From assembly GCF_002752675.1 (NCBI RefSeq), contig NZ_CP024608.1:2294001-2358000 (forward strand): DNA of 64,000 bases, read 5' to 3'. The stretch comes from Massilia violaceinigra (lineage in GTDB: Bacteria > Pseudomonadota > Gammaproteobacteria > Burkholderiales > Burkholderiaceae_D). Below the pieces are notes generated by a model. It saw only the letters and a list, made by a program, of their open reading frames with translations. It ran no database searches and was not told the DNA's origin. This document shows positions 5,307 through 63,133 of the stretch, piece by piece (the stretch's first letter is position 1; each line of letters begins with the position of its first letter). Made by a program: the position numbers and the translations under genes.

Positions 5307-5326
5307 ACTCTTCGACAGGACGATCC

Positions 5327-6535: not shown

Positions 6536-6541
6536 CCGATC

Positions 6542-7294
6542 ATGAACATGCGTATTCTTCCAATCCTGCTGGCCGGTGCGCTGGCCAGCCATGTCGCACA
6601 CGCCGAGACCGCGGACCCGAACGACGGGGCCGGCGCAAATACCTGCGCCGTCAACATCAAGCCGCGTACCCAGGAGTACCCGTGGATGTCGATCGGGCGC
6701 TGGAAGCGCATGCATGAAGACCAGCTGGCCCTGGCCGACAAGGGCGATGTGGACCTGATGTTCATCGGCGACTCGATCACCGAAGGCTGGCCGCGCGCGA
6801 TCTGGAATGTGAATTTCGGCGCCTACAAGGCGGGCAACTTCGGCATCGGCGGGGACAATACCGGCAACGTGCTGTGGCGCCTGCAGGACAAGCGCATGGC
6901 CAGGCTCGCGCCCAAGGCGATCGTGCTGCTCATTGGCGTGAACAACCTGGGGCTGTGCGACGAGAAGCCGGAACAGGTTTTCCCCGGCATCAAGGCGGTG
7001 GTGACGGCCTTGCGCAAGCAGTATCCGGCCGCGCGCATCCTGCTCAATGCCGTGCTGCCGACCGGCGAATCCGCGACGAGCGAGCGGCGCCAGAGTGTCG
7101 TCACGCTCAACAAGATGGTGGCAACCCTGGACGACGGCCGCCATGTGGTTTTCCGCGACTATGGCGCGTCCTTCGTGCGCCCTGACGGCGCCATCGGCAC
7201 CGACATCATGGGTGATTATCTTCACCTCACCCCAAAGGGCTACACCATCTGGGCCGACGCCATGCTGCCCGACGTGCAAGCACTGATGAAGTAG
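6542..7294 (+). CDS. Exported SGNH-hydrolase, probable carbohydrate deacetylase
   Basis: 250 aa with signal peptide (AHA cut). SGNH/GDSL blocks are clear: GDSITEGW (Ser78), GGDNTGN (Gly/Asn of the oxyanion hole), IGVNN, and GDYLHLTPKG with Asp225 and His228. This version resembles platelet-activating-factor acetylhydrolase-like lipases/esterases. In this operon the most likely substrate is an O-acetyl group on glucomannan, removed so the glycosidases can act. Substrate is inferred from context. Confidence 0.85.
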   Translation: MNMRILPILLAGALASHVAHAETADPNDGAGANTCAVNIKPRTQEYPWMSIGRWKRMHEDQLALADKGDVDLMFIGDSITEGWPRAIWNVNFGAYKAGNFGIGGDNTGNVLWRLQDKRMARLAPKAIVLLIGVNNLGLCDEKPEQVFPGIKAVVTALRKQYPAARILLNAVLPTGESATSERRQSVVTLNKMVATLDDGRHVVFRDYGASFVRPDGAIGTDIMGDYLHLTPKGYTIWADAMLPDVQALMK

Positions 7295-23705: not shown

Positions 23706-25931
23706 ATGACTACCACGACAATGCAGGACAAGCGGGGTGCGTTTGAAACGTCGCTGGAAGTAGGTGGCATGACGTGCGCCTCGTGCGCAGGACGGGTCGA
23801 AAAAGCGTTGCGTGCGGTGCCGGGCGTGCAGGGCGCCACCGTCAATCTGGCAACCGAGAAAGTGCTGGTTACCGGCGCCGGCCAATCGCTCGACCCCGCC
23901 CAGCTGATTGCGGCGGTCGAGCGCGCCGGCTACACGGCCAGTGCGCCGGCCGACGCAATGCCACTGTCAGCGCCACCGCCCGCGCCACCACGCGCTCTGT
24001 CCGAACCGGCGCAAATCGCGATTGCCGCCGCTCTGACCATCCCCCTGCTTGCCCCCATGCTGTTGGCCGCGGTGGGCATCGACTGGATGCTGCCTGCCTG
24101 GGTGCAATGGCTGCTGGCCACGCCTGTGCAGTTCTGGATCGGCGCGCGCTTCTACCGTTCCGCATGGAAAGCGTTGCTGGCCAGAAGCGGGAACATGGAC
24201 TTGCTGGTCGCACTCGGCACCTCGGCCGCGTACGGCCTGAGCCTGTACCAGTGGCTCGGCCAGCCGCAGCATCATGGGGCGCACTTGTACTTCGAGGCGG
24301 CCGCCGTGGTGATCACCCTGGTGCGCCTCGGCAAGTGGCTGGAAACGCGGGCCAAGCGCCAGACCACCGAAGCGATCCGCGCCTTGCAGTCCCTGCGGCC
24401 GGCAACGGCGCGCGTGCGCCGCAACGGCGTGGACAGCGACATCCCGATCGCTAGACTGAAGGTCGGCGACGAGGTCGTGATCCGCCCCGGCGAGCGCATT
24501 CCGATGGATGGCACCGTCATCGAAGGCGCCAGCCATGCCGACGAATCGATGCTGACCGGTGAAAGCCTGCCCGTGAGCAAGGCGGTGGGCGCGCGCGTGA
24601 TCGGCGGGGCGGTCAACGGCGAAGGCGTCCTGCTCGCCCGCGCCAGCGCCATCGGCACCGAAACCGTGCTGGCGCGCATCATCCGCGCGGTCGAGGACGC
24701 GCAGGCGGCCAAGGCGCCGATTCAGCGCCTGGTGGACAAGGTCAGCGCCGTGTTCGTGCCGGCGATTATCGTCATCGCGCTGGTCACCTTCTTGGGCTGG
24801 TGGCTGGCCAACGGCGACTGGAGCGCGGCGCTGCTCAACGCGGTGGCGGTGCTGGTCATTGCCTGCCCGTGCGCGCTGGGGCTGGCCACGCCGACGGCGA
24901 TCATGGCCGGTACCGGCGTTGCCGCCAAATACGGCATTCTGATCAAGGATGCCGAGGTGCTGGAACTCTTGCATGGCGTCACCGTGGTGGCTTTCGACAA
25001 GACGGGCACGCTGACCGCCGGCAAGCCGCGCCTGACCGCGTACGTGGCCGCGCAGGGCGACGAGCAAGCCTTGCTGGCGCTGGCGGCCGCCGTGCAGCAG
25101 GGCAGCGAGCATCCGCTCGCGCGCGCTGTCGGGGACGCGGCGCGGACGGCGGGCATCATGCCGGCGAGCGCGACGGGCACGCGCGCCCTGGCCGGACTGG
25201 GCGTCACCGCCACGGTGGATAGCCGGCAGCTATTGCTGGGCAATGCGGCCCTGATGCGCAAGCACGGTATCGACATCGCTCCGCTGGCCGCGCAAGGTCA
25301 GGCGCGCGAGGAGGCCGGCGAGACCGTGTCGTGGCTGGCCGAAGCCGCGCAAAGCCCGCGCCTGCTCGGCATGCTCGCCTTTGGCGACGCGCTCAAGCCG
25401 GAAAGCCGGCAAGCCATCGAGCGCCTGCACGCGGCCGGCATCCGCACGGTGATGCTCAGTGGCGACAATCCCGGCAGCGCGCATCACATCGCCAGCCAGC
25501 TCGGCATTGACGAGGTGCACGCGCAGGTGCTGCCCGAGGGCAAGGCAGCCATCATCGCGGCCCTGCGTGCCAAGGGCGAGCGGGTGGCAATGGTGGGCGA
25601 CGGCATCAACGATGCGCCGGCGCTGGCAGCGGCCGATATCGGCGTGGCCATGGGCAGCGGTACCGACGTGGCGATGCATACGGCCGGCGTGACCCTGATG
25701 CGGGGCGATCCGCGCCTGCTGGTCGACGCCATCGACATCTCGCGCCGCACCTACGGCAAGATTCGCCAGAACCTGTTCTGGGCGTTTGTGTTCAATGTGA
25801 TCGGGGTGCCGCTGGCGGCGTTCGGTCTGCTTAATCCGATGATCGCCGGGGCGGCGATGGCGTTTTCCAGCGTGTCTGTGGTGAGCAATGCGCTGCTGCT
25901 CAAGCGCTGGGTTGCGGGAGGAAAAACATGA
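23706..25931 (+). CDS. copA: Cu(I)-exporting P1B-type ATPase
   Basis: 741 aa. One N-terminal metal-binding domain carries GGMTCASC (Cys24, Cys27). Membrane helices follow, with the transport-site CPC in IACPCALG (Cys387, Cys389), the actuator TGES, phosphorylation Asp431 in FDKTGTLT, the HP motif GSEHPLA and [16 protein letters not shown]. It pumps Cu(I) from cytoplasm to periplasm, where the multicopper oxidase acts. The stop overlaps the cueR start (ATGA). Confidence 0.95.
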
Positions 25932-26323
25932 TGATGAATATCGGCGAGGCGTCCAAGGCGTCCGGTGTGTCGGCGAAGATGATCCGGCATTACGAATCGA
26001 TCGGGCTCATTGGCGAGGCGCAGCGCACCGATGCGGGCTACCGGGTGTACGGGCCACGCGATGTGCAGGTGCTGCAGTTCATTCACCGCAGCCGCGAGCT
26101 CGGTTTTTCGCTGGAACAGATCAAGACCTTGCTGGCCTTGTGGCAGGACAAGCAGCGCGCCAGCAAGGATGTGCGCGCGATGGCGAAGCAGCATATCGCG
26201 CAGCTGGATAGAAAAATCAACGACATGCAGTCGATGAAGCGCACGCTGGAAAAACTGGCTGGCGCCTGCCACGGCGACGATCGCCCGGACTGCCCGATCC
26301 TCGACGATCTGTCGCTGGGTTAA
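25928..26323 (+). CDS. cueR: MerR-family copper-responsive regulator
   Basis: 131 aa. The MerR winged HTH ([26 protein letters not shown]) is followed by a dimerisation helix and the metal loop [16 protein letters not shown], whose two cysteines eight residues apart match CueR Cu(I) ligands. Three tandem ATGs occur (25928, 25931, 25934) behind GGGAGG; any could be used. It is co-transcribed with copA and should control both divergent promoters. Confidence 0.92.
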
Positions 26324-27984: not shown

Positions 27985-29193
27985 CTATCGATCAAGTGCC
28001 GACCAGATGGCCTTGAATTTCGTCATGGCGCGCGGTGCACTGCCCTCGTTCGCATCGCCGAAATCGCTGTTCGTCAGGAAGATCTTTCCCGTCCCCTGTA
28101 CCGGATCGAACGCCATGAACGTCGTCACGCCCGGATCGCTGCCCGAGTGCCCGATCTGCCCGTTGGCCTCGTAGCGCCAGAAGACACCGCCATTCGGTTC
28201 GCCTTTCGGGCTATCGGCGGGAATGGCATTGTCGGCGAACTGCTTGTCGAACAGCAGCCGGAACGATGCTTTGCCGAGCAAGGCCGACTCCCCCCGATAC
28301 CCCTTGATCATTTCCACCAGGAAGATGGCCAGGTCGTCGGCGGAAGTGATCAGGCCGCCATCCGGATAGGTGATGAGCGAATACAGCGGATAGGCCTGTT
28401 TGCTGGTGTTGTACAGCCGCGCATGGCGCGCCGCCAGCCCCGCATCGATGGACCAACCCGTATGGCGCATGCCCAGCGGCTGGAAAATATGGGTCTGGCA
28501 GAACGCATCGAAGCGCTGTCCGCTCTTGAGTTCGACCAGATGGGCGGCCAGCGCCGCGCCGATGTTGGAGTACTCGTAGGTGCTGCCGCTCGGCGCCGCG
28601 CTGAAATTGCTCGCCTTGAAGTCGCGCCCGCCGGCCGCCAGGTAATTCCGAAGAAAACCATCGAGCGACGTATCGGCACGTCCCGGCACGGTGTACTCCT
28701 GTGTGAAACGCTTGAGCAAGGGACTGCGGCGGTCCGAATACGCGTTCAGGTAGTACGAGTGCCCGTAAGTCTCATCGTCGTCGACGATGCCGGACGTATG
28801 CGTGACCAGATGCCTGATCGTGATCGGTCCGGCGTCCGCATGCGGATTATCCACGCGAAAGGGCAGTACCGCATTGATCTCGGTATCGAGGGTGAAGTAA
28901 CCCAGCTCGATCGCCCTGGCAAGCGCCACCCCCACGAAGGTCTTGCTGACCGAACCGACGTTTTGCACGGTATCGGTCCGGTACGGCCGCCTGGCGCCCA
29001 GGTCGGCGTAGCCGAAGCCGTGCCGGTACGTCACCCCATCCTTGTTGACGGTGGCCACCGCAAACCCGGGAAAGCCCGCGTCCCGATGCAGCGCCTGCAG
29101 CCTGGCGCTCAACGCTTTCTCGTCCGGCCGTGCCTGCGCCACTGCGCAGCAGGCCAGCATGATGGCCAGTAGTACTCGTCGTCTCATCTGCAT
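27985..29193 (-). CDS. Exported serine hydrolase, class C beta-lactamase/DD-peptidase fold
   Basis: 402 aa with signal peptide (AQA cut). The catalytic SxxK is in GSVSKTFVG (Ser81, Lys84), the second motif is YSN (TYEYSNIGAAL) and the third is HSGSDPG. HLVTHTSGI is typical of PF00144 members. These act as peptidases or esterases and are usually not true beta-lactamases. It is divergent from torF, and the TTTA array between them points toward torF. Confidence 0.88.
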   Translation of the reverse strand: MQMRRRVLLAIMLACCAVAQARPDEKALSARLQALHRDAGFPGFAVATVNKDGVTYRHGFGYADLGARRPYRTDTVQNVGSVSKTFVGVALARAIELGYFTLDTEINAVLPFRVDNPHADAGPITIRHLVTHTSGIVDDDETYGHSYYLNAYSDRRSPLLKRFTQEYTVPGRADTSLDGFLRNYLAAGGRDFKASNFSAAPSGSTYEYSNIGAALAAHLVELKSGQRFDAFCQTHIFQPLGMRHTGWSIDAGLAARHARLYNTSKQAYPLYSLITYPDGGLITSADDLAIFLVEMIKGYRGESALLGKASFRLLFDKQFADNAIPADSPKGEPNGGVFWRYEANGQIGHSGSDPGVTTFMAFDPVQGTGKIFLTNSDFGDANEGSAPRAMTKFKAIWSALDR

Positions 29194-29220: not shown

Positions 29221-29285
29221 TTTACATTTCCTTTACGGCAGCGCACTGACTCTTTAGAAATTTTTTACGGCCGCGTCGATACCAT
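29221..29285 (+). promoter_or_regulatory. KdpE-like operator array and promoter of torF
   Basis: TTTA occurs at 29221, 29232, 29253 and 29264, giving periods of 11, 21 and 11 bp. A -10-like TACCAT (29280-29285) starts 16 bp after the last one. The same geometry precedes kdp and both operons at 62 kb. Direct repeats with an 11-bp period suit an OmpR-family regulator such as KdpE. Confidence 0.7.
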
Positions 29286-29328
29286 TTGCTGTGTCTCCGT
29301 TTTCCACTACAGCAAAGAAAGAACTACC

Positions 29329-30057
29329 ATGAAGATCGCCCTACTCGCAGCCCTGCTGTCGTTTGCCGCCCAGGCCGCATCGGCAGCGACCGAGTTCAGT
29401 CTTAACGCGGCCCTCACCAGCGACTACCGCTATCGCGGCATCTCGCAAACCCGCCTCCAGCCCGCGCTGCAGGGCGGGGCCGACCTGGTCCACAAGCCAT
29501 CCGGCTGGTACGCGGGCGCCTGGACCTCGACCATCAAGTGGACCAGCGACGCCGGCGGCAAGGGCAAGGTCGAGCTCGATATCTATGGCGGCAAGCGTGG
29601 CGAACTGGCACCCGGCATCGGCTACGACGCCGGCATACTGACTTACGTTTACCCATCCAATAAGCTCGGTCGCGTGCCCGGCTTGGCCAACGCCAATACC
29701 ACCGAGGCCTACGGCCAGCTGTCCTGGGGCATCGCGCTGGTCAAATATTCCCGCGCGCTCACCAATCTGTTCGGCTACGTGGACAGCAAGCGCAGCGGCT
29801 ATCTCGACCTGGCCGCCAATCCGGATCTCGGCAACGGCCTCGTGCTCAACCTGCACGCCGGGCGCCAGCGCGTGGCCCACAACAGCGCCGCCAGCTATAC
29901 CGACTACAAGATCGGCATGACCAAGGACTTCGCATGGGCGAGCGTGGCGCTGGCCGCCGTCGGCAGCACCGCCGCCAAGGCCGCCTACGCCTCGCCCGCG
30001 AACGGCAGCTTTCTTGGAAAACGCGCGCTGCTGCTGACCGTCAGCAAGACCTTTTAA
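29329..30057 (+). CDS. TorF-family putative outer-membrane porin
   Basis: 242 aa from the ATG at 29329, which begins a clean signal peptide (SAA cut). SLNAALTSDYRYRGISQT followed by alternating amphipathic strands and a C-terminal SKTF is the TIGR02001/TorF pattern. The family is predicted to form small outer-membrane channels of uncertain substrate. The operator array it shares with kdp suggests a role when potassium is scarce or osmolarity changes. Confidence 0.85.
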   Translation: MKIALLAALLSFAAQAASAATEFSLNAALTSDYRYRGISQTRLQPALQGGADLVHKPSGWYAGAWTSTIKWTSDAGGKGKVELDIYGGKRGELAPGIGYDAGILTYVYPSNKLGRVPGLANANTTEAYGQLSWGIALVKYSRALTNLFGYVDSKRSGYLDLAANPDLGNGLVLNLHAGRQRVAHNSAASYTDYKIGMTKDFAWASVALAAVGSTAAKAAYASPANGSFLGKRALLLTVSKTF

Positions 30058-30065
30058 CAAGGACG

Positions 30066-30130
30066 TTTACGCTTTGTTTACACCTGCGCAGCAACTCTTT
30101 ACACCATTTTTAGACGCTTGCCGCTACGCT
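30066..30130 (+). promoter_or_regulatory. KdpE-like operator array and promoter of the kdp operon
   Basis: TTTA at 30066, 30077, 30098 and 30109 (periods 11, 21, 11), with TACGCT (30125-30130) 16 bp after the last half-site. From memory, the E. coli kdp operator also has two TTTA half-sites 11 bp apart. The position directly upstream of kdp is the basis for naming KdpE. Confidence 0.78.
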
Positions 30131-30164: not shown

Positions 30165-30257
30165 ATGGACCTGATTTTCATTGGAGCGCTCCTGCTCTTT
30201 TTCGGCCTGGCCTGCGCCTTTGCAGCCGGCTGCGCCACACTGGGGGACAAGAAATAA
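30165..30257 (+). CDS. 30-aa membrane peptide upstream of kdpF
   Basis: The ORF encodes [14 protein letters not shown] followed by [16 protein letters not shown], one membrane helix with a basic tail. TCGAGGGTGAT precedes the ATG, and its stop overlaps the kdpF start (TAATG, 30255-30259). It looks like the small hydrophobic peptides often found before kdpF. It may be an extra Kdp subunit or stabiliser; no function is proven. Confidence 0.65.
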
Positions 30258-30343
30258 TGGAACCTGTTTATATAGGCGGGCTCGTCGCCGCCGGCCTGCT
30301 GGTCTACCTGGTGCATGCGCTGCTGAACGCGGAGGACCTGTAA
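30257..30343 (+). CDS. kdpF: KdpF, small subunit of potassium-transporting ATPase
   Basis: 28 aa, one membrane helix ([24 protein letters not shown]). Length and the LLNAE(D/K)L-like end match KdpF, which stabilises the KdpABC complex. Both ends overlap neighbours by one base (TAATG), showing tight translational coupling with the upstream peptide and kdpA. Confidence 0.85.
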
Positions 30344-32124
30344 TGACCATGCAATCGATGGCGCTCCTGGGCGCCTTCCTGGCCGCGCTGCTGGCGCTGG
30401 CGTACCCGCTGGGCCGCCTGCTGGCCCAAGTCGCCGCGGGCGACCGCGTACCGGGCCTGGACTGGCTGGCGCCGGTCGAGCGGCTGCTGTACCGCGCCGG
30501 CGGCGTCTCGCCTGGCACTGGGATGGGCTGGAAATCCTATGCGACTGCGTTGCTGGTGTTTAACGGCCTGGGCGCCCTGTTCGTGTATGGCGTGCAGCGC
30601 CTGCAAACCTTCTTGCCGCTCAATCCGCAAGCGCTGGCCAATGTCAGCCCCGATTCCTCGTTCAATACCGCTGTCAGCTTCGTCGCCAACACCAACTGGC
30701 AGGGCTACGGCGGCGAACAGACCATGAGCTACCTGACGCAAATGGTGGCGCTGACGGGCCAGAACTTCTTTTCAGCCGCCACCGGCATGGCCGTTGCTTT
30801 CGCCCTGATGCGCGGCTTCAGCGCGCGCTCGGCGGCGTCGATCGGTAACTTCTGGGCCGATATCACCCGTTCCACCCTGTACGTGCTGCTGCCGCTGTCG
30901 CTGCTGTTCGCGGTATTCCTGATGGGGCAGGGCGTGGTCCAGAACTTCAACAGCTACCAGGAAGTGCAGTTGATGGAGCCGGTCGCCTATTCGGTCTCCA
31001 CCTCGGGTGCCGACGGCCGGACTGTGACCGAAGCGAAGGTTGCCACCACCCAGACCATCGCCATGGGCCCGGTCGCCTCGCAGGAGGCCATCAAGCTGAT
31101 CGGCACCAACGGCGGCGGCTTCTTCAACGCCAACTCGGCCCACCCGTACGAGAACCCCAGCGCGCTGTCGAACTTTGCCCAGATGCTGGCGATTTTCCTC
31201 ATTCCGGCTGCGCTGTGCTTTACCTTCGGGCGCATGGTCGGCGACCTGCGCCAGGGCTGGGCCATACTCGGGGCCATGAGCCTGATCTTCGTGGTCGCCG
31301 CCGGCGTGGTGATGAGCGCCGAACAGGCCGTGCATCCGCAACTGGCGGCGCTGGGCGTCGACCAGGGTGCGAGCATCCTCCAAGCCGGGGGCAATATGGA
31401 AGGCAAGGAAGCGCGCTTCGGCATCGCCGCATCGTCCCTGTTCGCCGCCGTGACCACTGCGGCCTCCTGCGGCGCCGTCAACGCCATGCACGACTCGTTC
31501 ACCCCCATCGGCGGCATGGTGCCGATGCTGCTCATGCAGTTGGGCGAAGTGGTGTTCGGCGGGGTCGGCTCGGGCCTGTACGGGATGCTGATATTCGCCA
31601 TCATGGCGGTCTTCATCGCCGGGCTGATGATCGGCCGCACGCCGGAATACCTGGGCAAGAAAATCCAGGCCTATGAAATGAAAATGACCTCGATCGCCAT
31701 CCTGGTTACCCCGGTGCTGGTGCTGTGCGGGACTGCGCTGGCGGTGATGCTCGACGTGGGCCGCGCCGGCATCGCCAACCCCGGCGCGCATGGCTTCTCG
31801 GAGATCCTGTACGCCTTCAGTTCGGCGGCCAACAACAACGGCAGCGCCTTCGCTGGCTTGTCGGCCAATACGCCGTTCTACAACACCATGCTGGCCATTG
31901 CCATGTGGTTCGGGCGTTTTGCCGTGATCGTGCCGGTGCTGGCGATTGCCGGCGCACTGGCCGCCAAGCCGCGCCTGCAAGCCAACGCCGGCACCATGCC
32001 CACGCACGGTCCGGTCTTCGTCGGCCTGCTGGTCGGCGTGGTCTTGCTGGTGGGCGTGCTCAATTACGTCCCGGCGCTGGCGCTCGGCCCCGTTGTCGAG
32101 CATTTGCAGCTCTATACCAAATAA
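30343..32124 (+). CDS. kdpA: Potassium-transporting ATPase, ion-translocating subunit
   Basis: 593 aa from the ATG at 30343 in TAATGACC. Ten helices are expected, with four selectivity-filter-like repeats; [38 protein letters not shown] and [12 protein letters not shown] are conserved KdpA segments. It forms the K+ channel-like part of the high-affinity uptake pump in the inner membrane. Confidence 0.96.
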
Positions 32125-32142
32125 CTTCATGCGGAGCATATG

Positions 32143-34242
32143 ATGTCGCAAGCCCTCTCGCTGCCACCGGCAGCTACCACCCGCAAGACGCTCACGCTGT
32201 TCGATTCGGCGTTGATCGGCCCGGCCATCCTCGACGCCGTCATGAAGCTGGGACCGCGCACGCAATTGCGCAGCCCCGTCATGTTCGTCGTCTACGTCGG
32301 CAGCATCCTCACCACCTTGATGTACTTCCAGGCCGTTGCCGGCAAGGGCGATACGAAAAGTGGTTTCATCCTCGCCATCAGCGTCTGGCTGTGGTTCACC
32401 GTGCTGTTCGCGAACTTCGCCGAAGCGTTGGCGGAAGGGCGCAGCAAGGCGCAGGCCGCCTCGCTGCGTGGGCTCAAGCAGACGGTCAGCGCCAAGCAGC
32501 TGGCCACGCCCAAGTACGGCACCACCTGGCTGCCGGTTCCCGGGGCCGATCTTCGCAAGGGCAATACCATCCTGGTCGAAGCGGGCGATGTGATCCCGAT
32601 CGATGGTGAAGTCATCGAAGGCGTGGCCTCGGTCGACGAGAGCGCCATCACGGGCGAATCGGCGCCGGTCATCCGCGAGTCGGGCGGTGATTTTTCGGCC
32701 GTCACCGGCGGCACCCGCGTGCTGTCGGACTGGCTGGTGGTACGGGTGTCGGTCAACCCGGGCGAGACTTTCCTCGACCGCATGATCTCGATGGTGGAAG
32801 GTGCCAGGCGCCAGAAGACGCCCAACGAAATCGCCCTCTCCATCCTTTTGGTGGCCTTGAGTATCGTGTTCCTGGTCGTCACCGTGACACTGCTGCCGTT
32901 TTCGCTGTTCGGCGTGGCGGCCGCCGGCGCGGGCAAGCCGGTGAGCGTGACGGTGCTGATCGCGCTGCTGGTGTGCCTGATTCCGACCACCATCGGCGCG
33001 CTGCTGTCGTCGATCGGCGTGGCCGGCATGAGCCGCATGATGGGCGCTAACGTCATCGCCACCTCGGGCCGCGCGGTGGAGGCGGCGGGCGACGTCGACG
33101 TGCTGCTGCTTGATAAAACCGGCACCATCACCCTGGGCAACCGCCAGGCCGCCGCCTTCTTTCCCGCGCCGGGGGTGAGCGAGCAGGAACTGGCCGATGT
33201 GGCGCAACTGGCGTCGCTGGCCGACGAAACGCCCGAAGGGCGCTCGATCGTGGTGCTGGCCAAGCAGCGCTTCAATATCCGCGAACGCGACATGGCCAGC
33301 CTGCAGGCCAAGTTCATTCCGTTCAGTGCCAACACGCGCATGAGCGGCATCGATGTTGGCGCGCGCCAGGTGCGCAAGGGCGCCGCCGACTCGGTGAAAA
33401 AGCATGTGGAGGCGCTTGGCCTGCCGTATCCGCCCGAGATGGCGCGCACGGTTGACGATGTATCGCGCCGCGGCAGCACGCCGCTGGTGGTGGTCGACGA
33501 TGGCCGCGTGATGGGCGTGGTGGAATTGAAGGATATCGTCAAGGGCGGCATCCGCGAGCGCTTCGCGCAACTGCGCCGCATGGGCATCAAGACCGTGATG
33601 ATCACCGGCGACAACAGGCTGACCGCCGCCGCCATTGCCGCCGAAGCCGGCGTGGACGATTTCCTGGCCGAGGCCACGCCGGAAGACAAGCTCAAACTGA
33701 TCCGCAGCTACCAGGCCGAGGGCCGGCTGGTGGCGATGACCGGCGACGGCACCAACGATGCGCCGGCGTTGGCCCAGGCCGACGTGGCGGTGGCCATGAA
33801 CTCGGGCACGCAGGCCGCCAAGGAGGCGGGCAATATGGTCGACCTGGATTCGAACCCGACCAAGCTGCTCGAAATTGTCGAAATCGGCAAGCAGATGCTC
33901 ATGACGCGCGGTTCGCTCACCACGTTTTCGATCGCGAACGACATCGCAAAGTATTTTGCCATCATTCCGGCGGCATTCGTGGGCACCTATCCGCAGCTGA
34001 AAAGCCTCGACGTGATGCAGCTTGCCAGTCCGGATTCGGCCATCATGTCGGCCGTGATTTTCAACGCGCTCATTATCGTGGTGCTCATTCCGCTGGCGCT
34101 CAGGGGCGTGCGGTACCGGGCCATCGGCGCGGCGGCGCTGCTGCGCCGGAACATCCTCATTTACGGTGGGGGCGGCATCGTGCTGCCGTTCATCGGCATC
34201 AAGCTGATCGACATGCTGCTGTCGGCGCTTGACCTGGTCTAG
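32143..34242 (+). CDS. kdpB: Potassium-transporting ATPase, P-type catalytic subunit
   Basis: 699 aa from the second of two tandem ATGs; GGAG lies 6 bases before it (the ATG at 32140 is too close). Actuator ITGESAPV, phosphorylation site [12 protein letters not shown] (Asp324), and [21 protein letters not shown] identify a type IA P-ATPase. It hydrolyses ATP to drive K+ uptake through KdpA. Confidence 0.96.
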
Positions 34243-34255
34243 AAAGGACATCTTC

Positions 34256-34840
34256 ATGAAAACCACTTTTCGCCCCGCCGTCGTGCTGTTCGGCGCCCTG
34301 ACCCTGGTCGTGGGCGGGCTGTATCCGCTGGCGGTGACCGGCATCGGCTATGTCGCCTTCCCCGAACAGGTGCGCGGCAGCCTGGTGACGCAGGGCGGCA
34401 AGACAGTCGGATCGAGCCTGATCGGGCAATCGTTTTCGTCGCCCGGATACTTTTGGGGGCGTCCGTCGGCGACCGGACCGATGGCCAACAATGCGGGCGC
34501 CAGTTCGGGCTCGAACCAGGGACCGCTCAACCCGGCGTTGATGGAGGCGGCAAAGGGCAGGGTGGCGGCGTTGCGGGCGGCCGATCCAGGCAATGCGGCG
34601 CCGGTGCCGGTGGACCTGGTGACGGCATCGGCCAGCGGGCTCGATCCGGAAATCAGCGTGGCGGCGGCGCGCTATCAGGCCGGCAGGGTGGCGCGTGCGC
34701 GCACGCTGCCGCGCGAGCGGGTCGAGGCGCTGATCGGGGAATTGGCAATCATGCCGGTGCTGGGCGTGTTCGGCGAGGCGCGGGTGAATGTGCTGGCCCT
34801 CAATCTCGCGCTGGACAGGGCGTATACTCAGCCGGATTAG
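34256..34840 (+). CDS. kdpC: Potassium-transporting ATPase, KdpC subunit
   Basis: 194 aa from the ATG at 34256, preceded by AGAAAGGA. One N-terminal membrane helix and a periplasmic domain with GSSLIGQSF, YFWGRPSATG, ASSGSNQGPLNP and ASASGLDPEIS, all typical of KdpC. It assists K+ binding and complex assembly. Confidence 0.95.
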   Translation: MKTTFRPAVVLFGALTLVVGGLYPLAVTGIGYVAFPEQVRGSLVTQGGKTVGSSLIGQSFSSPGYFWGRPSATGPMANNAGASSGSNQGPLNPALMEAAKGRVAALRAADPGNAAPVPVDLVTASASGLDPEISVAAARYQAGRVARARTLPRERVEALIGELAIMPVLGVFGEARVNVLALNLALDRAYTQPD

Positions 34841-34854
34841 TAGCAAAGGCGGCC

Positions 34855-37549
34855 ATGTCCCCAACTGAAACCCAACGCCCCGACCCCGACGCCCTGCTGG
34901 CCCAGGTCCAGACCGACGAACGCAAAGCGGCGCGCGGCAGGCTGCGCATCTACTTCGGCGCGTCGGCCGGCGTCGGCAAAACGTACGCCATGCTGGCCGC
35001 CGCGCGCAAGTTGAACGCCGACGGCGTGGCCGTCCTGGTGGGCGTGCTCGAAACCCATGGCCGCCCCGAAACGGCCGCCCTGCTCGATGGCCTTGAGCGC
35101 CTCGGCCCGGCCACGCACGTCCATCGCGGCAAAGCGCTGCGGGAGTTCGACCTCGATGCCGCCCTGGCCGCCGCGCCGTCCCTGATCCTGGTCGACGAGC
35201 TGGCCCACTCCAACGCGCCCGGCTCGCGCCACCCCAAGCGCTGGCAGGATGTGGACGAGCTGCTGGCGGCCGGCATCGACGTGTTCACCACGGTGAACGT
35301 CCAGCACCTGGACAGCCTGAACGACGTCGTTGGCGGCATCACCGGCGTGCGCGTGGCCGAAACGGTGCCCGACACCGTGTTCGACGGCGCCGACGAAGTG
35401 GTGCTGGTCGACCTGCCGGCCGACGAACTGCTGGCGCGCCTGCGCAGCGGCAAGGTGTATCAGCCGGAACAAGCCGAACGCGCCTCGAAAAACTTCTTCC
35501 GGAAAGGGAACCTGATCGCCCTGCGCGAGCTGGCGCTGCGCCGTACCGCCGACCGGATCGAAGACGACGTGCGCGCCTACCGCATCGAAAAGTCGATCGG
35601 CACGGTCTGGAAGACCGGCGGCGCGCTGCTGGCCTGCGTGGGGCCGCGCGCCGATGCGGAGCACGTGGTGCGCAGCACCGCGCGCCTGGCGGGCCAGCTG
35701 GGAGCCGACTGGCATGCGGTGTACGTGGAAACGCCCGCCCTGCAGCGCAATCCGGCGCCGCAGCGCGAACTGACCCTCAAAACGCTGCGCCTGGCGCAGG
35801 AACTGGGCGCGAGCACGGCGGTGCTGGCCGGGCGCGACATCGCCGAAGCCATCGTCGGCTACGCGCGCGAGCACAATATGTCAAAGGTGCTACTGGCGCG
35901 CGCGCACCCGTCCTGGCCCTGGCGGCGCGCGCACCGGGCCCGCATCGCCAGCATCGCACCGGACATCGACCTGATCGAAGTCGGCGGCGGCCAGCCGCGT
36001 GCGGCCGCGACGGCGCCGGAAACGAACACGGTCACCCTGGCGTTCAACAGCGGCAAACGGCGCGCCGCGGCCTACGCCTGGTCGGGCGCGGCCAGCCTGG
36101 CTGCCGCGCTGCTGCTCTCGCCACTGGTCGGCTACGTCGACCTGGCCAACATCGCCATGCTGTTCCTGCTGGTGGTGCTGCTGGTGGCGGTACGCTTCGG
36201 GCGCGGGCCGTCAGTGCTGTGCACCTGCCTCTCTGTGGCCTGCTTCGACTTTTTCTTCGTCACGCCGCGCTTCGACTTTGCCGTCTCCGACCTGGAGTAC
36301 CTGATTACCTTCGGCGTCATGCTGGCGGTCGGCCTGATCACCGGCCACCTGACGGCCGGCCTGCGCTTCCAGGCGCGCGTGGCGGCGCACCGCGAGCACC
36401 GTTCGCGCGCGCTGTACGAGTTCGCGCGCGAGCTGTCCGGCGCGCTGCAGACCGAGCAGATCGTGGACATGACGCGCGACGCCATCGGCCGCGCCTTCCG
36501 CGCCGGCGCCACCCTGCTGGTGCCGGACGCCGACGGACGCCTGCAGGCGCCGCCGGGCGCCACGGCCGACATGGGCATCGCCCAGTGGGCCTTCGACCAG
36601 GCGCAAAGCGCGGGCCTGGGCACCGGCACCCTGCCGGCCAGTGCGCTGTTCTACCTGCCGCTGGTGGCCCCGATGCGCACGCGCGGCGTGCTGGCCATCA
36701 AACCGGAACAGCAGCGCTGGATGTTGATTCCCGAACAGCGCACCCAGCTCGACACCTTCGCCGCGCTGGCCGCCATCGCGCTCGAACGGGTGCACTACAT
36801 CGAGGTGGCGCAGGACGCGCTGGTGAACATGGAGTCCGAGCGCTTGCGCAACTCGCTGCTGGCGGCGCTCTCGCACGACTTGCGCACGCCGTTGACATTG
36901 CTGGTGGGGCTGTCGGAATCGCTGGCTGCCTCCAGTCCCGCACTGGCCGCGCCGCAGCACGACATGGCCGTCATCCTGCACGACGAAGCGCTGCGCATGA
37001 GCGCCCTGGTGGCGAACCTGCTCGAGATGGCGCGCATCCAGAGCGGCCAGATCACCTTCGACATGCAGTGGCACCCGCTCGAAGAAGTGGTCGGCAGCGC
37101 GCTGCGGGCCTGCGCCGCGCCGCTGCGCACGCACGTGGTGCGCACCGCACTCGAGCCCGACCTGCCGCTGGTGCGCTTCGACGCGGTACTGATCGAGCGG
37201 GTGTTGTACAACCTGCTGGAGAACGCCGCCAAGTACACGCCGCCCGGTTCGACCATCGTGGTTGCCGGCGCGCGCCACGGCGCATCGCTGCAATTGCGCG
37301 TCTATGACGACGGTCCGGGCTTCCCCGCGGGGCGGGCCGACTCCCTGTTCGAGAAGTTCGCGCGCGGCGAGCGCGAATCGGCGAAACCGGGCGTGGGCCT
37401 GGGGCTGGCGATCTGCCGCGCGATCATCGAAGCACATGGCGGTAAAATCGAGGCTGGCGCGTCGCCCATCGGCGGCGCTTCGCTTGTGATCACCTTGCCG
37501 CTCGGGACCCCGCCGCCCGGCCCTGAACCTGAAACCTTCGATACACCTG

Positions 37550-37557
<8 letters not shown>
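34855..37557 (+). CDS. kdpD: Osmosensitive K+ channel sensor histidine kinase
   Basis: 900 aa from the ATG at 34855. The N-terminal KdpD domain has Walker A GASAGVGKT, then a USP-like domain, four membrane helices around residues 400-500, a GAF-like region, and the kinase core with LSHDLRTPLT (His674), NLLENAAKY and GLGLAICRAI. It senses low K+ or ionic strength and controls KdpE. The stop overlaps the kdpE start by 8 bp. Confidence 0.95.
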
Positions 37558-38248
<691 letters not shown>

Positions 38249-40676: not shown

Positions 40677-41417
40677 GTGGGAGAGACCGATCATGTCCTG
40701 ATCGTGGACGACGACCGGGACATTCGTGAGTTGCTCAGTACCTATCTCGAAAAACAGGGCCTGTGCTGTACGGCAGTGGCCGACGGCCGCGCGATGCGGG
40801 CGGCGCTTCAACGGTCGACGCCGGACGTCATCGTTCTCGACATCATGCTTCCTGGCGACGACGGGCTCGTCCTGTGCCGCGAAATCAGGGCGGGCAAGCA
40901 CCGCGCCATTCCGATTCTGATGCTCACCGCGCGCGACGATGAAACCGATCGCGTTGTCGGCCTCGAGCTGGGCGCCGACGACTATGTGGCCAAGCCGTTC
41001 GCGGCGCGCGAACTGCTGGCGCGCATCCGGGCGGTGCTGCGCCGCACGCGGATGCTTCCTCCCAATATGCAGGTGACCGAATCGACGCGCCTGATCGGCT
41101 TCGGAGCGTGGCGGCTCGACGTCGTGGCACGCCATCTGCTCGCCGATGACGATGTCGCGGTCGCGCTGAGCACCGCGGAATACCGGCTGCTGCGGGTCTT
41201 CCTCGACCATCCGCAACGTGTCCTGACACGCGATCAGTTGCTGGAGCTGACCCACGGCCACGATGCACAGGCATTCGACCGCTCCATCGACATTCTTGTC
41301 AGCCGCCTGCGCCAGCGTTTGCGCGACGATCCGCGCGAGCCGCGCTACATCAAGACGCTGCGCAGCGAAGGGTATGTGCTGTCATGCCCGGTCACGCCGC
41401 TCGCGGGCGCGATGTGA
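40677..41417 (+). CDS. OmpR-family response regulator
   Basis: 246 aa from GTG at 40677 behind AAAGGAGA. Receiver with VDDDRD and phospho-acceptor Asp55 (VLDIMLPGDDG), then a winged helix (LSTAEYRLLRVFLDHPQRVL, VLSRLRQRL-like, IKTLRSEGYV). It overlaps the sensor kinase start by 4 bp and must be its partner. Targets are unknown; the convergent thioredoxin-like and cupin genes are candidates by proximity only. Confidence 0.9.
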   Translation: MGETDHVLIVDDDRDIRELLSTYLEKQGLCCTAVADGRAMRAALQRSTPDVIVLDIMLPGDDGLVLCREIRAGKHRAIPILMLTARDDETDRVVGLELGADDYVAKPFAARELLARIRAVLRRTRMLPPNMQVTESTRLIGFGAWRLDVVARHLLADDDVAVALSTAEYRLLRVFLDHPQRVLTRDQLLELTHGHDAQAFDRSIDILVSRLRQRLRDDPREPRYIKTLRSEGYVLSCPVTPLAGAM

Positions 41418-58131: not shown

Positions 58132-59112
58132 CTAAAGCCATCCTACCCGCTTGAGTCGACGGTGGAGAAAAACGCTCACCAGGACGATCCCAAGCATGAC
58201 GCAAGGGTAGCTCCAACGCCATGTCAATTCGGGCATGACGTCAAAGTTCATCCCGTACCAACTGAATACCATTGTCGGAACGGCGAGAATGGCGCCCCAG
58301 CCAGCGAGGCGCTTGACGACCTCGTTCTGGCGGATCGTTACCTGGGCCAGCGCTACCTGCATGGCGGCATCGATCATCTCCCTTACCCGGTCCGCGGACT
58401 CCGTCACACGCGCGACGTGGTCGAGAATGTCGCGGTAGTAAATCCGGTTTTCTTTGGGGATGATGTCCCCGTGAAAGCGCAGCAACTGCGTACACACGTC
58501 GGTCAGCGGCCCGGCGGCCGCCTGCAACGACAGCAGTTCGTTCTTCAGATTGTAAAACTCTTCCAGGTTACCGGCCGGAGGATTGGGCAGGAACAAGTCC
58601 TTTTCCACCTGGCGGAAGCGGTACTGGAGCGTATCCATGCAGGGCTGGTAATGGTCGACAATGAAGTCGACGATCGAGTACAGGACGTAGCCTGGTCCGG
58701 TAGCTAGCCTGGCCGGGGTATTTTCGGTTTTTTCGCGCACGCTGCCGTACCCGTTCGATTTCCCATGCCTGACGGTGATGACGAAGCGACGCCCGACAAA
58801 GACATGTGTTTCGCCGAAGTGGATCGTTTGTCCTGCCAGTGTCACCGTGTGCAAGACCACGAACAAGGTCTCGCCGTACTCCTCGATCTTGGGGCGCTGG
58901 TGGGCCTTCTGGGCATCCTCGACCGCCAGTTCGTGCAAGTCGAATTCTTCCTGTACCCGCTCCATCAATTCATTATCCGGTTCAACCAGACCGAGCCAGA
59001 CAAACGTATCCTGCTGTTCCAGCGCCGTGCCGATCTCGTCGATCGTGATCTCGCCGCGCTTGACGCCCTGCCGGTATACCGAACAATTTACCCTTGCCAA
59101 GCCCTCGTTCAT
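58132..59112 (-). CDS. corA: CorA-family magnesium/cobalt transporter
   Basis: 326 aa. N-terminal cytoplasmic domain (TFVWLGLVEPDNELMERVQE, RPKIEEYGETLFVVLHTV), long helices, then two C-terminal membrane helices with the signature YGMNFDVMPEL. Pentameric Mg2+ channel. Its start overlaps the RimK-like gene by four bases (59109-59112), so magnesium uptake is coupled to that operon and to its TTTA-array promoter. Confidence 0.92.
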   Translation of the reverse strand: MNEGLARVNCSVYRQGVKRGEITIDEIGTALEQQDTFVWLGLVEPDNELMERVQEEFDLHELAVEDAQKAHQRPKIEEYGETLFVVLHTVTLAGQTIHFGETHVFVGRRFVITVRHGKSNGYGSVREKTENTPARLATGPGYVLYSIVDFIVDHYQPCMDTLQYRFRQVEKDLFLPNPPAGNLEEFYNLKNELLSLQAAAGPLTDVCTQLLRFHGDIIPKENRIYYRDILDHVARVTESADRVREMIDAAMQVALAQVTIRQNEVVKRLAGWGAILAVPTMVFSWYGMNFDVMPELTWRWSYPCVMLGIVLVSVFLHRRLKRVGWL

Positions 59113-60740
59113 GTACCGGACTCGGTCTGCACGGGCGTCAAGCCGTGGGCAATATCGAGCCGGCGCACCAGGTCGCGCAGCACGATGCGGTACATGTCGT
59201 TGCCCAGCACGCTGTCTTCATTGCCGGCATCGATATTCGGGTTGTCGTTGACTTCGATGACCACGGGACCGCGCGTCGTCATTTTCATGTCTACCCCATA
59301 CAGCCCGTCGCCGATCAGATTGGCCGCAGCGACCGCGTACGCCAGCAGGTCGGGCGGGACTTCGTCCAGGGCCACTGCGCGCGCGGCGCCAAACTTGGCC
59401 TGTCCGCCGGCATCGCGCTTGGCGATCTGCCAGTGATTCTTGGACATGAAGTACTTGCTCGCGAAAATCGCCTTACGGTTCAACACGCCGATGCGCCAGT
59501 CGAAATCGGTGTACATGTATTCCTGCACCAGGATTAATGCCGATTGCGTCAGCAGGGCCTGGGCGGTTTGCTGGAATTGTTCGGCGTTGGCCACTTTGGT
59601 CACGCCGCGTGAAAAGGCGCCGTCGGGAATTTTCATGACCATCGGGTAACCGATTTCACGTTCGATGGCACCGATGTCGGCAATGTCCGTGCGTTGCAGC
59701 GCGTAGGTGTGCGGAGTCGGTATTTTATTCAGGCGCAGCAGGTCCGCCAGATACACCTTGTTGGTGCAGCGCAGGATCGACATCGGATCGTCGATCACCA
59801 CCATCCCCTCGCTTTCCGCCTTTTTCGCAAACAGATAGGTGTGGTGATTGATGGCGGTGGTTTCACGGATGAACAGGGCATCGAATTCGGCCAGCCGCGA
59901 AAAATCCTTTTTCTCGATCAGGGTGATATCCATGGCCAGTTCGCGGCCCACGTCGACAAACCGCTCCAGCGCTGCTTCGTTGCTCGGCGGCAGCTCTTCG
60001 TCCGGATCGCGCAAAATGGCGATATGGTAGCGGTACGGTTTGACGGGAGCCGGGGCCGGCATCGGTGCACGCTCGATGGCGCGCAGGGCGGCGCGGCCGC
60101 AGGTGAGCTGGGCATCGCTGAGGGTGCTCACATTGTGCACCCGGATGGCGCCAATCTTCCAGTCCTCGTCGCGTTCGAACTCGACCCGCATCAGCGGGGT
60201 CGGGAAGGTTTCGAAGATCTGGCGCGCAAGGGCGACTAGCGGGGTGTATTCGGTGGTGCCGAAATAAATATCCATCGAAAATTCGACGGGCATCGGACGC
60301 TCGCCCGTGTGCTCGAGCGACTGGTTCAGTGCATAGTCCAGTTGGTCAGTATCGAGGCCGTAGATCGCTTTGCGCGACAAGTCGTTGATGGTTTTCACCG
60401 ACGGCAGCACCGCCTGGCCGCGGGCCTCGGCCAGCAGCGAGCAGTAGTAACCGACCGACAAATATTTGTAGCTTCGGCACAGGTTGATGACGGTACTTCC
60501 CGGGGCGCCGCCCTGGTCCGCCGAGCCCAGGAACTGGGCCGCGGTGACGATGGTGTACGGGGTGGCCGTATCGGGCCAATCCTTGAGCTGTTCGACCACG
60601 ATGATCAGGCGCGACGCCACGGCGCGCGCGCGCAGCGGGGCGACGCGCGCCGTGGCGGGAGGTTCCTTGGGATCGTCGTCGGCGCCAGCGGCAAACTGGG
60701 CAATCGTAGGGCGGGATAACTTGGTGCGCATGGGGTTCAT
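59109..60740 (-). CDS. RimK-like ATP-grasp ligase with RLAN N-terminal domain
   Basis: 543 aa. The N-terminal 250 residues (RLIIVVEQLKDW, LCRSYKYLSVGYYCSLLAEA) match the RimK-like ATP-grasp N-terminal domain. The C-terminal ATP-grasp has TNKVYLADLLRLNKIPTP, YPMVMKIPDGAFSRGV and VIEVNDNPNIDAGNED. Such enzymes join an amino acid to a protein or peptide carboxylate. It lies six bases after the GNAT-C39 gene, a recurring pairing. Substrate unknown. Confidence 0.88.
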   Translation of the reverse strand: MNPMRTKLSRPTIAQFAAGADDDPKEPPATARVAPLRARAVASRLIIVVEQLKDWPDTATPYTIVTAAQFLGSADQGGAPGSTVINLCRSYKYLSVGYYCSLLAEARGQAVLPSVKTINDLSRKAIYGLDTDQLDYALNQSLEHTGERPMPVEFSMDIYFGTTEYTPLVALARQIFETFPTPLMRVEFERDEDWKIGAIRVHNVSTLSDAQLTCGRAALRAIERAPMPAPAPVKPYRYHIAILRDPDEELPPSNEAALERFVDVGRELAMDITLIEKKDFSRLAEFDALFIRETTAINHHTYLFAKKAESEGMVVIDDPMSILRCTNKVYLADLLRLNKIPTPHTYALQRTDIADIGAIEREIGYPMVMKIPDGAFSRGVTKVANAEQFQQTAQALLTQSALILVQEYMYTDFDWRIGVLNRKAIFASKYFMSKNHWQIAKRDAGGQAKFGAARAVALDEVPPDLLAYAVAAANLIGDGLYGVDMKMTTRGPVVIEVNDNPNIDAGNEDSVLGNDMYRIVLRDLVRRLDIAHGLTPVQTESGT

Positions 60741-60746
60741 GATGGG

Positions 60747-61949
60747 TCAGAAGGTGGGTTGAGCGGCCGCGCGACCGGGCATGGGAGAGCTGGAACGGGG
60801 ATAGATCACCACCACCGCCTTGGTGGCGTTGCGGCCATAGCGCGCCATGCGCTCGAAGTCTTTCTTCAGAATCGCCATGTTGATGCGCTCGTCCGCCGCC
60901 CGTCCGCTGGCATTGTCGGGATCGTGGATGAAAAAATAGCGGTCGTCGCATCCGGTGAGCAGCACCCAGTGCGGCGCACGTTCGCGCGTGAGCCTGTAGG
61001 TCGAGATCAGTACCAGCGGGATGCCGCCATCGGCATAGCAGCGGGTCAGTTCGGCCGTGCCGGCAACCCGGTGGTGAACCGGGATGCCGGCCTCGCGCGC
61101 CTGGCGCACGAAATCGTCGTGCACCAGAGTGATGACGTCGCGCTTTTCTTCGCTGCGCACCGACTCGCGGAACAGCACGCCATCGCCATTGACGTAGATC
61201 TCGGTCGGATAGCCGCGCCGGTGCCCCGCCAAGGCCAGTCCGTAGGGCCCGCAGCCGCCGTGGCCGGCCGTCATGAAAATCGTGGTCGCTTCGCGCCAGA
61301 TCTGCAGTTCCAGCGTACGGTTGAGCACCAACGCATGGTTGAACGCCTTCATGGCCATCATCAGGCACGACGCGCCGCAGGTGAAACCCAGGGTCTGGCG
61401 GTAATAGGTGGTCCGGGCCAGCTCCGGGCGCAGACGCGCGGTGAGCGATTTTTCGAACCGCAGGGCGTCCATGCCATCCTCGTAGTAAGCGCCGTGTTCG
61501 CCGAACAGGGCATACCCCTGGCCAAGAAAGAGCCGCTGCGATGCCAGGTTGTCCTTGCGGATCTCCAGGCGCATTGCCACGCAATTGTGCGCCAGTGCCA
61601 GTTCTTCGGCGGCGCGCAGCAGTGCCGAACCGACTCCCTGGCCCAGCCAGTCGGGCGCGGTGGCGATCGAATACACGCGCGCCAGCGAAACGCCGGTCCG
61701 GAACAACAGGGTAATGTAGCCGCGCGCATGGCCATCGGCCTCGTCGATCAAGGTCACGGAGTTGCCTTCGGTAAGCAAATGGCGAAAGCTGCGGCGGCTG
61801 AGGCGGTCGGAATCGAAACTGGCCTCTTCGATGCCCAGCAAGGTCGTAATGTCTTCCGGGCCAGCCTGCCGGATCCGGCAAGTTGCGGCTCTGCGCTGCA
61901 AGCCCGCCGCGTCGCGTTGCGCGGCCCGCTGATCAACTACAGCACTCAT
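60747..61949 (-). CDS. GNAT acetyltransferase fused to C39-like peptidase
   Basis: 400 aa from the ATG at 61949 (AGAGG six bases upstream; the frame is open further). Residues about 25-170 are a RimI-like GNAT domain (IATAPDWLGQGVGSALLRAA, NLASQRLFLGQGYALFG). Residues about 180-385 are a C39/papain-like peptidase: GFTCGASCLMMAMKAF with Cys191 the likely nucleophile, and PHWVLLTGCDDRYFFIHDP with the expected His and Asp. With the RimK-like ligase downstream it forms a peptide-modifying cassette. Role unknown. Confidence 0.85.
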   Translation of the reverse strand: MSAVVDQRAAQRDAAGLQRRAATCRIRQAGPEDITTLLGIEEASFDSDRLSRRSFRHLLTEGNSVTLIDEADGHARGYITLLFRTGVSLARVYSIATAPDWLGQGVGSALLRAAEELALAHNCVAMRLEIRKDNLASQRLFLGQGYALFGEHGAYYEDGMDALRFEKSLTARLRPELARTTYYRQTLGFTCGASCLMMAMKAFNHALVLNRTLELQIWREATTIFMTAGHGGCGPYGLALAGHRRGYPTEIYVNGDGVLFRESVRSEEKRDVITLVHDDFVRQAREAGIPVHHRVAGTAELTRCYADGGIPLVLISTYRLTRERAPHWVLLTGCDDRYFFIHDPDNASGRAADERINMAILKKDFERMARYGRNATKAVVVIYPRSSSPMPGRAAAQPTF

Positions 61950-61988: not shown

Positions 61989-62053
61989 ATCGTACACAGC
62001 GCCATATAAAAACGGCATCAAGAACACTGGTCAAAGCGTAAACAAAACGTAAA
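61989..62053 (-). promoter_or_regulatory. KdpE-like operator array and promoter of GNAT-C39/RimK/CorA operon
   Basis: On the minus strand TTTA starts at 62053 and 62042, TTGA at 62021 and TTTA at 62010: periods 11, 21 and 11 bp. A -10-like TACGAT begins at 61994, 16 bp after the last half-site. The geometry is identical to the torF and kdp promoters, with one half-site differing by a base. Confidence 0.65.
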
Positions 62054-62085: not shown

Positions 62086-62150
62086 TTTACGCTGCGTTTA
62101 CAGCCGGCGGGGAACTTTTTAGAACATCTTTACTGCTTGCTTGATACGCT
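62086..62150 (+). promoter_or_regulatory. KdpE-like operator array and promoter of orf103-ParA operon
   Basis: TTTA at 62086, 62097, 62118 and 62129 (periods 11, 21, 11) and TACGCT (62145-62150) 16 bp after the last. The -10 hexamer is the same as that of kdp. The array faces away from the minus-strand array 33 bp to its left. Confidence 0.7.
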
Positions 62151-62186: not shown

Positions 62187-62498
62187 ATGAACTCGTTTGC
62201 AACCCTGTATCCCTCATCCCGGCGCATCCCTGTCCGATCGGCGACGGACATGCACACCTGCACCATCCGTATGTCGGTGGACGCGGAATCGGTCACGACC
62301 TTGCGTCAGCTGGCGATGCGGCTGTGCGGCGAAGCGCTGGAATTCATGCGAATCGCCATGTGCGCCGGCGGCGCCCGGATCGAAGTCTGGCTGTGCGTGC
62401 GACAGTCCTGTGTGGAGGCGCTCAGCGAAGCCATTGCGCGCCAGTTGCCCGGCGCCCGGTTCAGGGAAGCGCCGTATCAGGCGGGAGCGGTGGCATGA
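62187..62498 (+). CDS. 103-aa protein of unknown function
   Basis: Starts at ATG 62187 with GGCGGAGG upstream. The protein looks like a small alpha/beta domain (TCTIRMSVDAESVTTLRQLA, RIEVWLCVRQSCVEALSEAI), possibly ferredoxin-like. Not recognised. The stop overlaps the ParA-like start (ATGA), so the two products probably work together under the TTTA-array promoter. Confidence 0.65.
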   Translation: MNSFATLYPSSRRIPVRSATDMHTCTIRMSVDAESVTTLRQLAMRLCGEALEFMRIAMCAGGARIEVWLCVRQSCVEALSEAIARQLPGARFREAPYQAGAVA

Positions 62499-63133
62499 TC
62501 GTCGCCATCGCGAGTATCCAGGGGAAACCCCTCAAGACCCCGCTGGCGGCGAATTTGGCGCTGTTGCGAGCCCGTAGCGGGCGCACGATCTGCCTGATCG
62601 ATGTCGATCCGCGCCGCAGCGCCTATAGCTGCAGTTGCGCGCGCAGCGCAGCCGGCCAGAGTCCATCCGTGCCCACCCGCACGCTCGATGCGCGCTCGCT
62701 GGCGCGCGAGATTGAAGAGTTGACCCCCGGCTTCAGCGACCTGCTGATCAATACAGGCGAGGTGGAAACCCAGGAAGCCCGTCCGGCGCTCATCGCCGCG
62801 CGCGTCGTGCTCGTGCCGGTGCAGGTCGGGAACGTCGATCTCGAATCCCAGTACCCGCTCATTGCGCGGCTCAATTCGGCCCGCATGTTCAATCCGTCCT
62901 TGAAGGTGCTGTTCGTGATCGTTTCGGACGGGTCGACACCGTCGCCGGAGCAGCTGGCGGCGGTGCGGCTATATGTCGCTCATGTCATGTCGGCCACCCT
63001 GGTCGCGACGGTGCTGCATGCACCGTGCAGCCATGACGACGGCCAGGGGCGCTGCGCAAGCGACGCGCAAACGTGCGATCCGGACGCCGCCGCCGAACTG
63101 CATGCCTTGTATCGCGAAATCTACACGCACTGA
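62495..63133 (+). CDS. ParA/MinD-like protein with altered Walker A
   Basis: 212 aa. IVAIASIQGKPLKTPLAANL aligns with the deviant Walker A of ParA/MinD, but KGGxGKT reads QGKPLKT: the signature lysine and two glycines are lost while Lys14-Thr15 remain. TICLIDVDPRRSA matches the switch I/A' strand. DLLINTGEVET and RVVLVPVQVG follow the fold. ATPase activity is doubtful. No parB or chromosome-partition site is nearby, so a regulatory or localisation role is more likely. Confidence 0.7.
   Translation: MIVAIASIQGKPLKTPLAANLALLRARSGRTICLIDVDPRRSAYSCSCARSAAGQSPSVPTRTLDARSLAREIEELTPGFSDLLINTGEVETQEARPALIAARVVLVPVQVGNVDLESQYPLIARLNSARMFNPSLKVLFVIVSDGSTPSPEQLAAVRLYVAHVMSATLVATVLHAPCSHDDGQGRCASDAQTCDPDAAAELHALYREIYTH

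Follow-up and report, generated by a model that had tools for sequence, protein, structure and literature searches.

Four promoters in a stretch of 64,000 nucleotides of the Massilia violaceinigra genome (hereafter, the window) carry arrays of TTTA half-sites that share one spacing. These arrays are very probably operators of phosphorylated KdpE, read by two tandem dimers of which the proximal one would replace the -35 element, and would drive a regulon of four promoters under K+ limitation. This reading is built on features computed here, namely the geometry of the arrays, their restriction to four promoters, their co-occurrence with kdp genes, their match with the E. coli site and their conservation. 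Although KdpE serves as a model among response regulators, the operator reported for it consists of a single pair of half-sites, and the regulon reported for it of essentially one operon. From a broader perspective, it is likely that paired head-to-tail dimers in an invariant frame are the KdpE unit of beta- and gammaproteobacteria, one half of which has been missed by the E. coli model, and that in bacteria of the Oxalobacteraceae type KdpE has spread from a single operon to a regulon for K+ limitation.

Arrays and genes in the window

The frame consists of TTTA half-sites at periods of 11, 21 and 11 bp, followed by a TAC..T hexamer 16 bp past the first base of the last half-site (11-21-11-16), and is found before torF, before kdpF and before two divergent operons at 62 kb. 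The torF array (29221..29285, forward strand) is made of TTTACA, TTTACG, TTTAGA and TTTACG, with the hexamer TACCAT at 29280, while the kdp array (30066..30130, forward strand) is made of TTTACG, TTTACA, TTTACA and TTTAGA, with TACGCT at 30125. Half-sites (29221/29232/29253/29264 and 30066/30077/30098/30109) and hexamers lie exactly where a previous sequence-only reading of this DNA had placed them. The same reading had announced two more arrays of identical geometry at 62 kb and 15 exact half-sites out of 16, and both statements hold: one array precedes the GNAT-C39 operon (61989..62053, reverse strand; TTTACG, TTTACG, TTGATG, TTTATA and hexamer TACGAT), the other precedes s103-ParA (62086..62150, forward strand; TTTACG, TTTACA, TTTAGA, TTTACT and hexamer TACGCT), and the sole deviant is the TTGA of the third half-site in the former. 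The two are divergent, with their first bases (62053 on the reverse and 62086 on the forward strand) 33 bp apart. All window arrays contain the elements of a KdpE operator as defined in PMC3264566, i.e., two TTTA half-sites with a period of 11 bp, corresponding to 6-bp repeats separated by a 5-bp spacer.

The frame is rare. Shuffling the window 100 times with its dinucleotides preserved gave no array match with up to one mismatch. A scan of the whole genome (7.53 Mb, two contigs), proposed with the sequence-only reading as a check that many random matches would have turned against the frame, returned just these four arrays with up to two mismatches of 16 (two matches for the reversed-pattern control), and again these four only with up to three mismatches of 19 when the hexamer was included as TA...T (no control match).

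As for the genes behind the arrays, torF (29329..30057, forward strand) encodes a presumed outer-membrane protein of the Gcw_chp family (PF09694; Pfam 4e-54). The kdp array is followed, all on the forward strand, by kdpF (30257..30343; 28 aa, Pfam Potass_KdpF 1.4e-9), kdpA (30343..32124; Pfam KdpA 3.5e-239), kdpB (32140..34242), kdpC (34256..34840), kdpD (34855..37557) and kdpE (37550..38248); kdpB was assigned as an open reading frame (ORF) that tblastn places beside kdpA in relatives, and kdpC and kdpD as ORFs from the tblastn gene order in relatives. The genes behind the 62-kb arrays, which the sequence-only reading had left unnamed, are identified here. On the reverse strand Pfam recognizes a GNAT acetyltransferase fused to a DUF3335 C39-like peptidase (60747..61949), an RLAN/RimK-like ATP-grasp ligase (59109..60740) and a CorA-like Mg2+ transporter (58132..59112), which are separated by a 6-bp gap and then joined by a 4-bp overlap, with the CorA gene overlapping the end of the RLAN gene. 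On the forward strand s103 (62187..62498), a protein of 103 aa without Pfam family, is followed by a ParA/MinD-like P-loop protein (62495..63133) whose Pfam CbiA match of 1.1e-5 is barely above the cut-off. An AlphaFold2 model of s103, obtained with 10 sequences (mean pLDDT 74.8), has a beta-alpha-beta-beta-alpha core. A fold search with it gave no match at E<=0.001, the top being TM1266 at 1.2e-3, followed by PII-like and ACT-like folds; on the basis of this model, s103 may possibly have an ACT/PII-like fold.

The E. coli kdp promoter and the frame in relatives

In E. coli, the half-sites TTTATA and TTTACA, with 5 bp between them, are bound by the DNA-binding domain of KdpE; its gel shift is lost when two bases of a half-site's TTTA are changed and just weakened when one is, and R193, R200 and T215 are named as important residues (PMC3264566). 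The footprint spans -72 to -50, and the distal site alone is described (PMC3264566). The MG1655 kdp promoter displays TTTATA at position 0, TTTACA at 11, TTTGCG at 32, TTTGCA at 43 and TACCCT at 59, which is the frame of the window. The TTTA-N7-TTTA operator that the sequence-only reading had named for E. coli is present, as TTTATA-N5-TTTACA, and goes together with a second pair, not noticed in that reading, whose TTTG half-sites are one base off TTTA. The 17-bp pair of S1 (TTTATA) and S2 (TTTACA) has to lie within the footprint, which puts the start of TACCCT at about -13 to -7, in the -10 place. The Massilia arrays share with the E. coli kdpFABC site the TTTA half-sites, the 11 bp period, the kdp promoter, the contact residues of KdpE and the position of the hexamer, and differ in that E. 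coli is described as having one pair, whereas two pairs, four promoters and other genes are found here; the second pair is present in E. coli too, as TTTG/TTTG. A description of the proximal pair, or of the regulon proposed here, was not found in the literature searched, which included PMC3264566, PMC7657598, PMC5716572, PMC5458449 and PMC11018627 but did not reach the original footprint papers of 1992. The operon kdpFABC is called the sole known target of E. coli KdpE, to which evidence from ChIP-exo (31 peaks) and from expression has added adeP, uxaA and uxaC as proposed direct targets (PMC7657598); these three are not among the array-linked genes of this analysis.

To follow the frame further, named regions were chosen by KdpA and anchored on the first pair that scored best ahead of kdpA (the farthest upstream in case of a tie), with the exclusion of six regions taken for Oxalobacteraceae. 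The mean score of the second pair is highest at offset 32 and that of TA...T at 59 in each of two groups, one of 16 Enterobacterales regions with E. coli among them and one of 39 others; these 39 are the anchored ones among 59 other named regions, the remaining 20 having no first pair of at least 7 of 8. The Enterobacterales peak at offset 32 is modest (4.75 of 8, z 2.9, with 4.56 at offset 33). The frame recurs at further Enterobacterales and at many betaproteobacterial kdp promoters; in the Burkholderiales Xenophilus and Piscinibacter the half-sites drift to TTGA or TCTA, while several kdp regions among the named loci, some of them alphaproteobacterial or fragmentary, show no frame. An aligned consensus for four gene classes displays the same frame; as its arrays were preselected by pattern, these logos are no evidence for the proximal pair. 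With a fixed two-pair frame visible in E. coli as well as in Massilia, the geometry of activation becomes testable in a laboratory strain.

The link with kdp was assessed in a family set of 116 genomes, 70 with kdpA and 46 without. Arrays with up to one mismatch of 16 lie 231-323 bp ahead of the kdpA match in 61 of the 70, 48 of them perfect, and are missing at kdp in the other nine; as in the window at 30066, the site is thus found at the kdpFABC promoter. Without the hexamer, the census at one mismatch has a clear background (135 matches, 80 in the reversed control), so one-mismatch arrays from it were not counted alone and the census was redone with the hexamer, again with up to one mismatch, giving 110 matches (61 at kdp, 49 elsewhere) versus 5 in the control. 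An array with hexamer is present in 62/70 genomes with kdpA and in 1/46 without (Fisher 1e-22, ignoring shared ancestry), the eight kdpA genomes without such a match being G023, G048, G053, G054, G064, G071, G094 and G111. Arrays at kdp can only exist where kdp exists, and the independent association is therefore that of the 49 arrays away from kdp, which sit in 30/70 genomes with kdpA and in 1/46 without; perfect arrays away from kdp, ignoring the hexamer, occur in 23/70 and 2/46, respectively. The single exception without kdpA (G034) has its array ahead of a KdpD-like kinase (DUF4118, HisKA) adjoining a kdpE homologue. In the own genus, arrays with up to one mismatch of 16 were found in 12 of 17 genomes; those without are G001, G007 and G011, which all lack kdpA, plus G013 and G014. 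Taken with the E. coli half-site match and the published need for TTTA in gel shifts of the KdpE domain (PMC3264566), the distribution of the non-kdp arrays speaks for the attribution to KdpE made by the sequence-only reading.

Proposed mechanism and alternative readings

The reader of the operators would be the response regulator KdpE (gene at 37550-38248), which shares 66% identity with its E. coli counterpart and has the DNA-contact residues R193, R200 and T215, invariant in the five KdpE aligned. Once phosphorylated, it would bind as two head-to-tail dimers, one for each TTTA-N7-TTTA pair, and since the pairs are 32 bp apart, i.e., three helical turns, both dimers would lie on one face of the DNA. 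A TAMGCT-like -10 hexamer follows at a distance of 12 bp from the proximal pair, whose dimer would take the place of a -35 element and recruit sigma-70 RNA polymerase. The gaps between hexamers, 10 and 21 bp, exclude either proximal half-site (S3 or S4) as a usual sigma-70 -35, which makes a polymerase recruited by the dimer the natural reading. Under K+ limitation, kdpFABC-kdpDE, TorF, the GNAT-C39/RLAN/CorA operon and the s103-ParA operon would be switched on together. From the features described above we infer binding at each promoter, the dimer on the proximal pair, activation and the K+ signal. As a guess, TorF could be a channel of the outer membrane that supplies the Kdp pump, and the ligase/peptidase cluster could make or trim a solute or peptide compensating for low K+.

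The proposed arrangement resembles known systems. In the tandem operators of the OmpR/PhoB family, such as the PhoB box and the PhoP box, direct repeats of about 11 bp replace the -35 element at a set distance from the -10; the arrays are alike in both respects and differ in half-site sequence and in the fixed 32-bp spacing of two pairs. Furthermore, PhoE is a porin regulated by PhoB alongside the high-affinity transporter Pst, and there, as proposed here, a single regulator links a channel of the outer membrane to a pump of the inner membrane, with potassium, KdpDE and a Gcw_chp protein in the present case.

The proximal pair is the point on which a single-dimer reading differs: the distal pair alone would be the KdpE site, bound by one dimer as described for E. 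coli, and the proximal repeats an AT-rich element, such as a degenerate -35 or UP-like sequence. We consider this unlikely. The confinement of the published footprint to -72 to -50 (PMC3264566) and the TTTG of the proximal E. coli half-sites are in its favor, but the proximal repeats hold their 32-bp offset when regions are selected through KdpA and only the distal pair serves as anchor, their distances from the -10 (10 and 21 bp between hexamers) suit no -35 element, and Xenophilus and Piscinibacter drift to TTGA in both pairs. The identity of the regulator is questioned by another reading, according to which a different OmpR-family protein with a TTTA half-site, for example of the PhoP type, reads the arrays, perhaps alongside KdpE. 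PhoP boxes are GTTTA repeats with an 11 bp period placed 12 bp before the -10, the very geometry of the arrays; the genome contains 19 regulator matches at E<=1e-20, 18 of which are further KdpE-like proteins, and one array-driven operon ends in a CorA-like Mg2+ transporter. However, a PhoP box would be expected irrespective of kdp, whereas genomes without kdpA are nearly free of arrays (1/46); moreover, the 18 paralogues share 30-40% identity with KdpE, and the two OmpR-type regulators of the window (40677-41417, forward strand, and about 52327-52983, reverse strand), the only ones of the 18 that were aligned, differ from KdpE in the recognition helix. We regard this reading as improbable. 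That the arrays are chance or compositional repeats has a negligible probability: single TTTA-N7-TTTA pairs are present elsewhere too (1458) and the family search at one mismatch without the hexamer has a clear background, but the shuffled windows yield none, the genome holds no further site and the family matches exceed their control by 110 to 5. A chance or compositional origin is refuted by the genome scan and the family census, both with the hexamer.

Genes behind the arrays in relatives

The genes downstream of the 49 non-kdp arrays, sorted by hand from a simple ORF choice, belong in 40 cases to recurrent families, namely torF, s103, DHDPS-family (DapA-like), ParA-like, GNAT-C39 and KdpD-like kinase. 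Ten arrays precede torF alone, three s103-torF, eleven s103 and/or DapA-like genes, three a DapA-like gene facing kdp, five ParA-like genes, three s103-ParA, four GNAT-C39 and one a kdpD-like gene. Among the remaining nine, four precede a BBP2 porin (G099), Usp (G057), HlyD (G043 C1) and a protein of 886 aa that has no family (G090), three have no convincing gene (G043 C11, G117, G120) and two fall outside the sorting (G062:C16:83307, G068). The array ahead of the BBP2 porin is in line with the guess that TorF is a channel. A torF homologue lies within 15 kb of kdpA in at least 46 of the 70 kdpA genomes, and two or more homologues are found in 49/70 genomes with kdpA versus 4/46 without; the genome under study has two further torF homologues (three matches in all), neither with an array in the genome scan with the hexamer. 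DUF3335 is present in 5 of the 116 genomes, all with kdpA, and has an array directly upstream in four. Two genomes outside this set, G012 and G015, have arrays ahead of SPFH proteins. In G120 (L126, 4004-5953, forward strand) an array lacking the hexamer precedes an APC-family permease, which we assume may be a K+ importer of the KimA type, and the locus also has a kdpE homologue.

Genes that are array-linked here (torF, CorA and GNAT-C39/RLAN) are found within the kdp locus of other Burkholderiales, as seen among 80 named KdpA loci when genes on the same strand are considered. In Rhodoferax (L195) GNAT-C39 and RLAN follow kdpC, the locus ending before any kdpD; between kdpC and kdpD are found CorA (L198, L217, L218, L253), torF and CorA (L208, L251) or torF (L221). 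Judging from order and strand, these gene sets would be single transcripts. In L190 torF lies immediately before kdpA and has a perfect array ahead of it; the highest score reached in the interval between these two genes is 8 of 16. The s103-ParA-torF set of a Janthinobacterium MAG (L235), located beside a DapA-like gene and kdp, follows an array that scores 15 of 16. If the proposed regulon is correct, genes placed inside the kdp locus in some lineages would be scattered but operator-tagged in others, and the regulon would hold an outer-membrane channel, an uncharacterized system of acetyltransferase-peptidase and peptide ligase, a small ACT/PII-like protein and a ParA-like ATPase. The pattern, having a low background, would serve as a search tool assigning the uncharacterized TorF, RLAN/C39 cluster, s103 and ParA-like protein to potassium homeostasis.

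Some minor observations concern the neighborhood of these genes. A 30-aa hydrophobic peptide without Pfam match is encoded by an ORF between the kdp array and kdpF (30165-30257); a similar frame is seen by eye ahead of kdpA in L191, and the peptide is possibly a second small Kdp-associated one. A serine hydrolase of the beta-lactamase family (27985-29193; PF00144) is divergent from torF and begins 28 bp away from the array of the latter, and in some relatives of the genus a GNAT-like gene occupies its place. In L110 (G090) the 886-aa protein (4019-6676, forward strand; no Pfam family) stands behind a one-mismatch array with hexamer. Downstream of kdpE, at 2.4 kb, an OmpR-type response regulator occurs together with a histidine kinase with HAMP, HisKA and HATPase domains (40677-42763), and elsewhere in the window a heavy-metal P-type ATPase (23706-26323; HMA, E1-E2) is followed by a MerR-family regulator.
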